From positions 1 through 62,258 of the IMG/VR virus record IMGVR_UViG_3300009049_000003: 62,258 nt of DNA; one strand, written 5' to 3'. This document shows positions 28,900-34,473 of this stretch, in pieces. The notes below the pieces were generated by a model. The model saw nothing but the letters and a program-made list of their open reading frames with translations. It searched no databases and was not told the origin of the DNA. Numbering within the stretch: the stretch's first letter is position 1; every line of letters starts with the position of its first letter. The stretch comes from a virus. A program made the translations under genes and the position numbers.

Positions 28900-30309
28900 A
28901 TGTTAAAAAACAAAGACCCAAGTTTATATAATGAAGACTTGGCTCCCATTCCAGAAAAGAAACGTACATGGGGTGCGTTCGAGATTTTTAACGTATGGTC
29001 TAACGACATTCAAAGTTTGTTTGGTTATACGCTAGCAGCATCTCTATTCATCTCATTTGGTTTAAACGGTTGGACAGTATTTGCTGCCATCATGTTGGCC
29101 GGTCTTTTTGTAATGTGGTTAGTCAATTTGATGGGTGAGCCAAGCGTTAAGTACGGTATCCCATTCCCTGTTATGGCTCGTTCGAGTATGGGGGTAAGAG
29201 GTGCTAACTTCCCGGCTGTGGCCCGCGGAATTGTAGCAATCTTTTGGTATGGTGCACAAACTTATTTCGCATCAACCGCAGTATCGCTATTAATTTCGGC
29301 ATTAGCAGGTGGAAATGGGGAAGCAGTAATGCTAGGTATGAGTACAATCGATTGGGTATCGTTCCTATTCGTTTGGGCATTTCAAGTATATCTGTTCTGG
29401 AAAGGTATCCCTTGGATTACTAAATTCCTAAATTTCGCAGGTCCTTTTGTTTACGCAGTAATGATTGCTTTGGCTCTCACTATTTGGGTAAAAGCAGGTT
29501 CAGGACTTACTACAGAAATGGGTACAATCTTTGAAGGTACAGGCGAATACGTAGGTACATCTTTCTCAGCATTCGTAGCTATTGTAGGAACAATGATCGC
29601 TTATTTCGCAGCAGTTGTAATTAACTATGGTGACTTCTCACGTAACGTTAAAACACAAGCTGCAATGAAAAAAGGTAACTTGATTGGTTTGCCATTGAAT
29701 ATTGCATTCTTTTCATTGATTACACTTATCGTTACTTCAGGTACTATTGCAATCTGGGGTGAAGCGGTTACAAGTCCAACTGATATTATTGCGATGGTAG
29801 ATTCTTTACCATTGACTGTCGTTGCAGCGATTATGTTTTTCGTAGCAACTATCGGTATTAATATCGTTGCAAACTTTATCCCTCCAGCGTATGATATCGC
29901 TAATCTAATGCCTTCAAAAATCGATTTTAAACTCGGTGGTTTGATTACATCAGGTTTTGCTCTTATCATTGGTGGATTATGGGTATCAACTATTTCACAG
30001 CTCGGTATCTTCGGGTTTGTTAATACTTTAGGAGCTGTACTTGCACCTATCTACGGTATTATGATGGTTGATTACTACATGCTTAAGAAAGGCAAATTAA
30101 ACGTAGAACAATTATTCTCGGCATCTGAAGATGGTGAGTATTACTACGATAATGGTTGGAACAAAAAAGCTATGATCGCTTTTGTTGTACCTGCTATTTT
30201 CTCAGTAGCGACTGTCTGGGTAGGTTCATTGGCATTCTTGTCAGGTTTCTCTTGGGTAATTGGCGCTGCACTTGGTGGTTTAGTTTATTACGCAATTACT
30301 AAAAAATAA
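28900..30309 (+). CDS. NCS1-family nucleobase:cation symporter
   Basis: 469 residues, full length for the NCS1 (Mhp1/PucI/Fur-type) family with about 12 hydrophobic segments. Signature: NEDLAPIPEKKRTWG (11-25), KYGIPFPVMARSSMGVRGANFPA (two parts, 84-106), FWYGAQT with W116 and Q120, equivalent to Mhp1 W117 and Q121 in the substrate site, and NIVANFIPPAYDIANLMP in the helix 8 region. It would import a nucleobase, hydantoin or allantoin with Na+ or H+ across the inner membrane. The substrate cannot be predicted. It has its own promoter, operator-like repeat, AAGGAG site and terminator, forming a self-contained unit unusual in a phage. Confidence 0.92.
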   Translation: MLKNKDPSLYNEDLAPIPEKKRTWGAFEIFNVWSNDIQSLFGYTLAASLFISFGLNGWTVFAAIMLAGLFVMWLVNLMGEPSVKYGIPFPVMARSSMGVRGANFPAVARGIVAIFWYGAQTYFASTAVSLLISALAGGNGEAVMLGMSTIDWVSFLFVWAFQVYLFWKGIPWITKFLNFAGPFVYAVMIALALTIWVKAGSGLTTEMGTIFEGTGEYVGTSFSAFVAIVGTMIAYFAAVVINYGDFSRNVKTQAAMKKGNLIGLPLNIAFFSLITLIVTSGTIAIWGEAVTSPTDIIAMVDSLPLTVVAAIMFFVATIGINIVANFIPPAYDIANLMPSKIDFKLGGLITSGFALIIGGLWVSTISQLGIFGFVNTLGAVLAPIYGIMMVDYYMLKKGKLNVEQLFSASEDGEYYYDNGWNKKAMIAFVVPAIFSVATVWVGSLAFLSGFSWVIGAALGGLVYYAITKK

Positions 30310-31566: not shown

Positions 31567-31588
31567 GGGAGCTTCGGCTCCCTTTTTT
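31567..31588 (+). terminator. Rho-independent terminator between convergent operons
   Basis: GGGAGC, TTCG tetraloop, GCTCCC (31567-31582), then six T. A stable UUCG hairpin closes the plus-strand unit; the minus-strand tape measure gene ends at 31587 inside the T run. Confidence 0.9.
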
Positions 31589-33599
31589 AGCTTAGCATAT
31601 GTGGCATACCAGTTATCGCAGGATCACCACTAAAACCGCCACCTACATTCACAACATTAAGATCTGTCTTTGTTTTAGCACCTTGAACTGTTGTCATGTT
31701 AGGCGACACGTTTGTTGGAGCATTAATACTTAAATGTAAAGGATGTGTACTACCAGCATCTTGTATAATTTTAAATGTATTCGGATCAATAGAACCTGGA
31801 CCACCTGGTTTAAACGGTAATATGTTAAAGTTTTTCATAGCGCGTTTAGCATTATAGTCATAACTACCCATATCTCCACCTCTAAACAAGTGCTGAGTAT
31901 CTGATATTGCATCTAACGCATTCATTTCGTGTCCAGTAGGAACATTACCCATCATGCCACGCAATCTACCAGAGCCATACGCTACAGGGTTAACACTTCC
32001 TGTTAAAATTGTATCTACTGTTGCTTGTCCGACTTTCTTTTCCGCTGGAGATATTTCTTCTTGTAGTAACCATTTACATACAATATAACCTAAATAGTCT
32101 CCGCTGAAACCACCTAAAATAGAACCTACTAAACCACCTGCTGGAACAGTCAACCAAGCAAATGGTCCACCTAATAAACCGGCAGCGGCACCAGCTACAG
32201 CTCCACCTCCTGCACCAATAATTCCACCAATGTGACCGCCTATTAATGCTAATCTTTCATCTTCACTAACATCAGCCTGCATCATCGTCATTAAAATAAT
32301 TAAATCTGCAACTTTAAAAGCTACATTTAATTTAGCTAAGAAATCAAAAAGTCTAGTTAATAACTTTCTCATCCTTGGGCTATTAAGTTTTTTAAGAGCT
32401 TCTTGGATATCAGAAGCTTTGACTTTTGCGTTAGGATCAGGAGCTGAGTTAGAGTTAGCAGCCATATAAGCTCCTCTATTTAACTCTCCAAATTTACGTG
32501 GATCTCCTCGACCAATTACAGATGTTGTTGGTGTTCTATTAAAAGAATTTCCCATTCCGTTTTGTACTTTTTGATTTGCGTTAGGTCTATATGGCGGCTC
32601 TGGTGATGTTGTATTAAAGTTAAATCTGAAAGGCCCCTGTGGTTGGTTTATTTTAGGAGGTAAGTCCGTATTAACAGGTGTATCAAAACCATTTGTCCTT
32701 GCATTAAATCCAGAATCCATGTTGAATTTGGCGCCTGGACCTAAATCATCAATACTTGTAACAATCTTTGGTTTATTTAAATTGTCGAGTAATTTTTGGT
32801 TTGCTTTTACAATATCAGCCTGTTGTTTTATGATTTTCTTTTGATTTTCAGACATTTTACTAGAGTCGATCTCAGTATCAGTAAGAAGTTTATTATTTCT
32901 TTTCATGATTGCATTAGAGATTCTAATACCAGCCATTGTTATAGCTAAGCTAAAGGGAATTGACGCTACTGCAATAAGTATTTTAGTAATAACACTATTA
33001 CGAACATTATCAATATCTTCTTTTAACGATTTAAAAGTTTTATTCATCTCTGCGATGTTTGCGTTCATTGTCTCGAGACTTGTTTTAAGTGTGTTTGGAT
33101 CAAAGCCTCTTAGAGATTTACCCATTTCACCTATCTTTGACTCAAGTTCTGAGAATGATCCCTGATATCTTTCATCAACAAAACCTTTGAGAACGTTATA
33201 ACCAGCTCCAGCTGCAAGCAAACCGCCACCCAATTTTGCAGCTCCGCCCAACATTCCGCCTAATGTAATCTTTTCAAGTCTATCGCCCATCTTTTCAATG
33301 GCTTTATCTGTTCTTTCACCAGTTTCTTTTACTGCTACAACTTTCTCTTTTCGTTCTAAGTCAGCAAAGTCAGCGTCTTGTTTAGCTCTTTCTGCATTCT
33401 GTTCGATCATATTAGTTTGGATTGCTAACATTTCTCTTTGTGCTGTAGAGTTTCTAGCTATAGTATCGAATACTTTATCAAACTTTCTTAATTCTACTTT
33501 AACAGAACGAAGCGAATTCGTACCTGAGTTACGAATTAATTGACCTTCAGCTTTTAACCTGTCAATAATTGCTAATGTTTCTTCTGACATCTGAGCCAT
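31587..33599 (-). CDS. Tail tape measure protein (gp29-like)
   Basis: 670 residues. The N-terminal third is charged coiled coil (to about 110), followed by hydrophobic Gly/Ala-rich segments near 114-138, 205-228 and 455-510 (GGIIGAGGGAVAGAAAG type), with low-complexity Pro/Asn-rich linkers (about 290-390) between. This alternation of coils and membrane-active segments is typical of tape measure proteins. The position, directly downstream of the gp26/small-ORF pair, is the usual one. T4 gp29 has 590 residues, and I see no direct motif match to it. Confidence 0.7.
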   Translation of the reverse strand: MAQMSEETLAIIDRLKAEGQLIRNSGTNSLRSVKVELRKFDKVFDTIARNSTAQREMLAIQTNMIEQNAERAKQDADFADLERKEKVVAVKETGERTDKAIEKMGDRLEKITLGGMLGGAAKLGGGLLAAGAGYNVLKGFVDERYQGSFSELESKIGEMGKSLRGFDPNTLKTSLETMNANIAEMNKTFKSLKEDIDNVRNSVITKILIAVASIPFSLAITMAGIRISNAIMKRNNKLLTDTEIDSSKMSENQKKIIKQQADIVKANQKLLDNLNKPKIVTSIDDLGPGAKFNMDSGFNARTNGFDTPVNTDLPPKINQPQGPFRFNFNTTSPEPPYRPNANQKVQNGMGNSFNRTPTTSVIGRGDPRKFGELNRGAYMAANSNSAPDPNAKVKASDIQEALKKLNSPRMRKLLTRLFDFLAKLNVAFKVADLIILMTMMQADVSEDERLALIGGHIGGIIGAGGGAVAGAAAGLLGGPFAWLTVPAGGLVGSILGGFSGDYLGYIVCKWLLQEEISPAEKKVGQATVDTILTGSVNPVAYGSGRLRGMMGNVPTGHEMNALDAISDTQHLFRGGDMGSYDYNAKRAMKNFNILPFKPGGPGSIDPNTFKIIQDAGSTHPLHLSINAPTNVSPNMTTVQGAKTKTDLNVVNVGGGFSGDPAITGMPHMLS

Positions 33600-33610: not shown

Positions 33611-33772
33611 TTACTTTTCGTTTTGTTGTTCTATATAATCAACTAACATTCCAAAATATAAATCACGTTCATAAGGTATCATACTTTCTATTTCAGCTAT
33701 TGAATATTTATGGTGCTGCGCCAACATGAATATAACTTTGTAATACTCTTGAAGAGTATTGTGGAGCAGCAT
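33611..33772 (-). CDS. Small tail-assembly protein downstream of gp26, probable frameshift partner
   Basis: 53 residues: an ATG at 33772 overlapping the gp26 stop (TAATG), then LQEYYKVIFMLAQHHKYS and IAEIESMIPYERDLY, ending EQQNEK. It lies between gp26 and the tape measure, where phages encode tail assembly chaperones. A run of seven T at the end of gp26 would place ribosomes into this frame by a -1 shift, so it may exist mainly as the C-terminal part of a gp26 fusion; the ATG also allows separate translation. Confidence 0.75.
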   Translation of the reverse strand: MLLHNTLQEYYKVIFMLAQHHKYSIAEIESMIPYERDLYFGMLVDYIEQQNEK

Positions 33773-34473
33773 TACATAAAAAAAGTCTTCATACCCTCCA
33801 TTACGAAGGTTTGTTCTTTACCTTCTTTATTAGTATATTTCATTTCGTGTCTCATTATTGGCATTGTCTCAAAGAATTTTTGAATTCCTGCAACAACGTC
33901 GCTCGATACGCCGTCCATAAAGTTATCAATATCTTGCTCGGTATAATCTTTAAACCAATGTACTTCGTCTTCTGATGCGATACGTTCTAAACAAGCTGTC
34001 ATAACAAAGTAACTTGCTAACGGATCATTTGGAGCCAATTGTTGGATTTTAATGTACTCATCAATAGACGGGTATTTTAAAAACAAAGTATATTGATCGT
34101 TGATCTGTATTTTATTAGTATGTCCATCATCTTTCATAACTTGTACATCGTTTAAATCAAGTTTTAGTTCTACTTCTTCATCTGTATCAGGATCGTTTAT
34201 ATTAAAATCAATTTGGTTATCAACAGAAACAGATCTAATCATCAGAATAATAAATTCTAAATCAAACATTGCTATCTGATCAACATCAACGTCAAGTAAA
34301 CAATTGTTAACAACTTGTCTTGCAGCAATTATTTCTTGCATACCATCATCAGATTCTTGTGCAACTAATAATATTTTTTCTTCTTTAACAGTAAATGGTC
34401 TATACTTGATAGGCTTTCCTGTAGAAGGAAGAATCATCTCGCGTATCGGTAATTCAATTTTTGGTAAACCCAT
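33772..34473 (-). CDS. 26: Baseplate/tail-assembly protein gp26-like
   Basis: 233 residues, T4 gp26 family (T4 208). Start MGLPKIELPIREMILPSTGK and then YRPFTVKEEKILLVAQES are typical, as is DLEFIILMIRSVSV near 75. In T4 it is assigned to baseplate hub assembly, and its place before the tape measure is that of a tail chaperone. It ends KTFFM-stop; the codons ACT TTT TTT make a slippery T TTT TTT heptamer in the correct frame for a -1 shift into the next ORF (see findings). Confidence 0.85.
   Translation of the reverse strand: MGLPKIELPIREMILPSTGKPIKYRPFTVKEEKILLVAQESDDGMQEIIAARQVVNNCLLDVDVDQIAMFDLEFIILMIRSVSVDNQIDFNINDPDTDEEVELKLDLNDVQVMKDDGHTNKIQINDQYTLFLKYPSIDEYIKIQQLAPNDPLASYFVMTACLERIASEDEVHWFKDYTEQDIDNFMDGVSSDVVAGIQKFFETMPIMRHEMKYTNKEGKEQTFVMEGMKTFFM
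33778..33784 (-). other. Slippery heptamer T TTT TTT, candidate programmed -1 frameshift site
   Basis: Seven consecutive T on the minus strand, phased as (AC)T TTT TTT in the gp26 frame, four codons counting the stop from the end. A -1 slip reads TAT GTA ATG and continues in the 53-residue ORF, giving a fusion of about 287 residues. Confidence 0.6.

Follow-up and report, generated by a model that had tools for sequence, protein, structure and literature searches.

In the viral record IMGVR_UViG_3300009049_000003 of IMG/VR, analysed here over its full length of 62,258 nucleotides (the window), a gene of the gp26 family and the small open reading frame (ORF) that follows it very probably constitute a single recoded tail assembly chaperone (TAC) gene, from which programmed -1 frameshifting would yield a short product, TAC-N, and a long product, TAC-NC. 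The basis of this reading is sequence comparison, and involves a conserved reading frame, a conserved slippery heptamer, a covarying RNA stem, a codon bias that resembles a Shine-Dalgarno (SD) site, and the end-to-end homology of the predicted long form with gp51 of phage T4; slippage in cells, at whatever rate, is what these features point to.

The 3' end of gp26 on the minus strand reads AAG ACT TTT TTT ATG TAA, and both the heptamer T TTT TTT, in phase with gp26, and the 53-codon ORF in the -1 frame were confirmed (Table 1). The 53-codon ORF (33611-33772) begins at the ATG of a TAATG overlap, and upstream of the gp26 stop codon the -1 frame is open for only 43 nucleotides (nt). A slip of one base on the heptamer is predicted to generate the product ...MKTFFYVMLLHNTL..., in which the junction follows residue 232 and whose 287 amino acids (aa) agree with the length anticipated beside the 233-residue gp26. 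The window holds a single copy each of gp26 and of the small ORF. Profile searches associate gp26 with PF12322 (E 7.4e-50) and phrog_150 (E 7e-55), and the small ORF with phrog_634 (E 8e-20), the family of the “baseplate hub assembly catalyst,” i.e., T4 gp51. In the mechanism proposed, the majority of ribosomes would halt at TAA to produce the 233-aa short form, while a minority would shift back by one base on T TTT TTT and continue to the 287-aa long form, a step that would be aided by an RNA stem that begins 6 nt downstream, with the SD-like GGAGGG upstream as a probable further stimulator.

Table 1. Coordinates of the proposed recoding locus and of the gene that follows it, as positions in the window
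Feature	Position	Strand	Basis
gp26-family gene (short product, TAC-N, 233 aa)	33772..34473	minus	PF12322, phrog_150; structural model
SD-like GGAGGG, candidate stimulator, 9 nt upstream of heptamer	33794..33799	minus	codon bias in relatives
Slippery heptamer T TTT TTT, in gp26 frame	33778..33784	minus	sequence
gp26 stop codon TAA, one codon past heptamer, sharing bases with the ATG of the 53-codon ORF (TAATG)	33772..33774	minus	sequence
Extension in the -1 frame (55 codons past the predicted slip), gp51 C-terminal domain; includes the 53-codon ORF	33611..33778	minus	phrog_634 E 8e-20; gp51 alignment
Conserved stem, 5' arm TGCTGCTCCA, starting 6 nt past heptamer	33762..33771	minus	covariation
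Conserved stem, 3' arm TGGCGCAGCA	33714..33723	minus	covariation; 9/10 pairs form in window
Candidate tape measure protein, 670 aa, next gene	31587..33599	minus	position and weak profile hits

The identity of the small ORF becomes clear from T4, where gp51 is the product of a separate, essential gene. Residues 1-201 of T4 gp51 match PF12322 (E 3.9e-52), as does T4 gp26 (E 8.8e-64), and along the 282 positions of the phrog_150 alignment T4 gp26 spans positions 14-235 while T4 gp51 spans 13-280. Because of this coverage, T4 gp51 is, by sequence homology, a gp26 paralogue that carries an extra C-terminal domain within one gene, and the small ORF of the window corresponds to that domain. The predicted 287-aa fusion aligns end to end with a T4-type gp51 (236 columns, E 2.3e-18), ungapped at the junction, and thus has the collinear layout of the long TACs of the gp51 family, in which the gp51 C-terminal domain comes after a gp26-like domain. 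The record of phage KVP40 itself remarks that its short gp51 resembles the end of T4 gp51. Full-length gp51 as one gene, in the fashion of T4, was also seen in Campylobacter phage CP220 (L089), for which a separate 225-aa gp26 is listed in a viral structure library, and in Vibrio phage phiKT1024 (L097).

The original prediction had proposed that gp26 loci of related phages be compared at low nucleotide identity. Relatives drawn from IMG/VR and from named phages provided 264 gp26 loci, which form 120 clusters at 80% gp26 identity, and all three downstream frames were searched for gp51 with a profile made from nine named phages, themselves among the 264 loci. A downstream match was present in 110 of the 120 clusters and lay in the -1 frame in every one of them; a homologue of the 53-residue ORF in the 0 or +1 frame was found in none of these 110. 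An in-frame TTTTTTN stands at the end of gp26 in 108 of the 110, GTTTTTT in one (L015), and neither in Vibrio phage YC, and the slippery site was also seen individually in cultured phages that include KVP40, P-SSM2, phiM12, PhiW-14, Mosig and Melnitz. Eight of the ten remaining clusters are of T4 type (T4, Aeromonas phage 25 and other loci), all with a separate gp51 and none with the heptamer; of the other two, phiA8-29 is without heptamer and groups with Ackermannviridae, and L173 has TTTTTTC in a sequence that ends just after it. The codon that precedes TTT varies among 109 clusters (AGT 47, GAT 23, ACT 13, AAT 12, TCT 10, GCT 2, GGT 1, ACG 1); in 108 of 109 a T stands immediately ahead of TTT, where codon usage predicts 62.9, and the first phenylalanine codon is TTT in 109 of 109, where 79.3 are expected, counts in which the clusters, sharing ancestry, are not independent trials. 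Since the -1 frame holds in 110/110 clusters and the poly-T site in 109/110, and since codon choice is biased at the site, the combination of -1 ORF and slippery run is not a product of chance, as judged from these alignments, and the association persists at low identity as the original prediction had envisaged.

The RNA downstream of the heptamer provides further indications. Folding of the 60 nt that follow it is more favorable than that of dinucleotide shuffles (mean z of -2.44, with -0.42 and -0.01 in controls), and the downstream RNA also has greater stability than versions shuffled among synonymous codons so as to preserve the protein of the -1 frame (mean z of -2.68, as opposed to -0.18 in a control region). 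Among 51 sequences that are relatives of the window, a 10-bp stem is paired in 91.8% of cells versus 24-45% in slid controls, a figure that is biased upward by the choice of the stem and of part of the sequences for their pairing, with the poorly pairing L059 and L074 put back; 29 cells changed on both sides, a number reached by 0 of 500 shuffles, and compensatory exchange is such that AU, UA, UG, CG and GC are all present at pair 19-66. In an unselected set of 108 loci the register of this stem came out above all registers tried, and 44 loci form at least nine of the ten pairs. In the corresponding position, cyanophages related to P-SSM2 carry a local hairpin of another design (79.9% paired, with double-sided changes in 15 cells), and covariation of stems is thus found in two separate sets. 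An inner hairpin at approximately 33742-33760 is specific to the window; it lies outside the conserved stem and does not count among the elements of the proposed signal.

Upstream of the heptamer, relatives carry a Glu-Gly pair at a distance of 8-10 nt, for which GAG GGN or GAA GGA are the preferred codons: its glutamate codon is GAG in 45 of 83 cases, versus 29% in gene bodies (p 1e-6), and GAA GGT was observed 4 times where 26 were expected. This bias in codon choice suggests an SD-like stimulator, similar to that of E. coli dnaX.

A different origin of the small ORF's product would be translational coupling, in which ribosomes would terminate at TAA and reinitiate at the ATG that overlaps it, yielding a free 53-aa protein. 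The window does contain TAATG, and the ORF is annotated as a separate gene in many records, but an overlap of the TAATG/ATGA type occurs in only 29 of the 110 clusters, and in 52 of them the -1 frame lacks ATG, GTG and TTG between its upstream stop and five codons beyond the gp26 stop; in 15 clusters a -1 stop directly abuts the heptamer. Coupling would also leave the in-phase heptamer and the stem unexplained, and the homologous domain in T4 is joined to a gp26-like domain. As a replacement for frameshifting it is thus very unlikely, and since about half of the 110 clusters lack ATG, GTG or TTG near the junction, reinitiation is not a general mechanism; the original prediction had seen that TAATG also permits reinitiation, which holds as a possibility for the window, and a free 53-aa protein may be added to the other products in some phages, this one included. 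A still more improbable route to one continuous frame is transcriptional slippage, in which RNA polymerase would add or drop a U on the run of T. The seven T of the window could lend themselves to it, yet 54 of the 110 clusters have just six T followed by C, and the codon phase of the run, T TTT TTN, is fixed in 108; both of these argue against an event at the level of transcription, and a stem 6 nt past the run suits a ribosomal stimulator.

Three observations weigh against programmed frameshifting, or lessen the force of the evidence for it. Ackermannviridae have the same -1 ORF with merely a degenerate site; the shared ancestry of the clusters means that the codon counts overstate independence; and the TAATG start of the window does exist, such that some free 53-aa protein could be made. 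Programmed -1 frameshifting of the lambda G/GT type, which the original prediction had put forward, is nevertheless strongly supported at the level of sequence, because frame and heptamer are retained where identity is low, the stem shows covariation, and reinitiation would find no ATG, GTG or TTG at the required place in 52 of the 110 clusters.

The degenerate sites at the end of gp26 take the forms ATT TTC, GTT TTC, CTT TTC, GTT TTT and GCT TTC, and were seen together with the -1 ORF in Ackermannviridae and their relatives (L271, which is Vi01, L272, L273, L274, L275, L094 and L096); in Vi01 this ORF is unannotated. In several cyanophage reference genomes, including L098 (ACG-2014h), the gp51 region is likewise unannotated, which fits an ORF without a start codon of its own.

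The structural model of the window's gp26 (predicted local distance difference test score, pLDDT, 87.7) has as its best solved structures 3fgx (Z 8.3), the HK97 tail assembly chaperone 2ob9 (Z 7.8) and yqbN, 3klu (Z 6.8), followed by a next value of 2.7. The likeness extends over 81-84 N-terminal residues, roughly the first 90 of the protein, and the model thus points to a TAC-N fold, with moderate Z values that speak for likeness of fold only. The gp26 profile, compared with the sequences of solved structures, retrieved no tail protein, and a viral scan with gp26 of Vibrio D527 gave no matches. The model of a T4-type gp51 has three additional C-terminal helices (residues 206-248); a direct Foldseek search of solved structures with it returned no match below E 0.001, and its likeness to the HK97 TAC in a second comparison (Z 3.7) was too weak and was left unused.

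A 670-aa gene directly follows the locus, as the original prediction had noted in calling it the tape measure. Its position and weak profile hits, of which the best to a tape-measure family has E 0.02, make it a candidate for that role, the name going beyond what its sequence supports; the protein matched neither the tested part of T4 gp29 nor the neighbor in KVP40. By analogy with lambda gpG and gpGT, the short and long forms may act on the tape measure and the tail tube. Adjoining the tail genes, at 28900-30309 on the plus strand, lies a 469-aa protein of the cytosine/purine permease family (PF02133, E 1.7e-83), so that this phage contig encodes a full-length transporter.

A broader model, held here as somewhat better than an even bet, is that a three-part RNA signal, composed of an SD-like site, T TTT TTN and a stem-loop, sets the ratio of short to long TAC across the T4 superfamily, that the stem exists in two designs, one in the marine relatives of the window and one in cyanophages, and that the lineage of T4 exchanged the signal for a duplication into genes 26 and 51. 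The descent of the two T4 genes from a frameshifting ancestor is suggested by the distribution of arrangements among groups. Genome records of these phages either give gp26 and the “baseplate hub assembly catalyst” as separate genes or omit the second; if the proposal is correct, these are one recoded gene, a defined RNA signal determines the short:long ratio in abundant marine phages, and T4 is the derived case, which employs two genes for the work of one.

Among known systems, lambda G/GT resembles the present locus in that the downstream ORF occupies the -1 frame, overlapping the end of the upstream ORF, as it does in the window and in 110/110 clusters; the slippery sequence of lambda differs from the T TTT TTT found here. 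Vladimirov, Gautam and Davidson (2022, Virology 566:9-15) reportedly identified the TACs of T4-like phages, and presumably named gp26 and gp51. Their work is cited for the occurrence in some T4-like phages of one short and one long fused TAC gene, located separately (PMC10885494), a pairing of short and long forms like that proposed here, and for poly-T slippery sequences in the TAC-N genes of T4-like phages (PMC12846349), and the statement in the original prediction that no established case was known for the gp26 family is thus out of date. The lambda frameshift has been reviewed with T4 listed as an exception (PMC5009743). The principle of a frameshifted TAC is hence already known, from lambda G/GT and from T4-like phages; the passages of the TAC literature consulted make no mention of a covarying stem or of an SD-like site, and these may represent new detail. 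T4 itself has the same components in another arrangement: its gp26 is equivalent to the short form and its gp51 to a gp26-like domain with the same C-terminal domain, but in T4, as in Aeromonas phage 25, genes 26 and 51 are separate and on opposite strands, and the end of T4 gene 26 is without a slippery heptamer. The TAC locus of Vandenendeviridae and Andersonviridae (PMC12846349) is similar in having a -1 frameshift at a conserved poly-T, GTTTTT, before the tape measure gene, whereas these are other phage families, likened to the present locus by the description of their frameshift.
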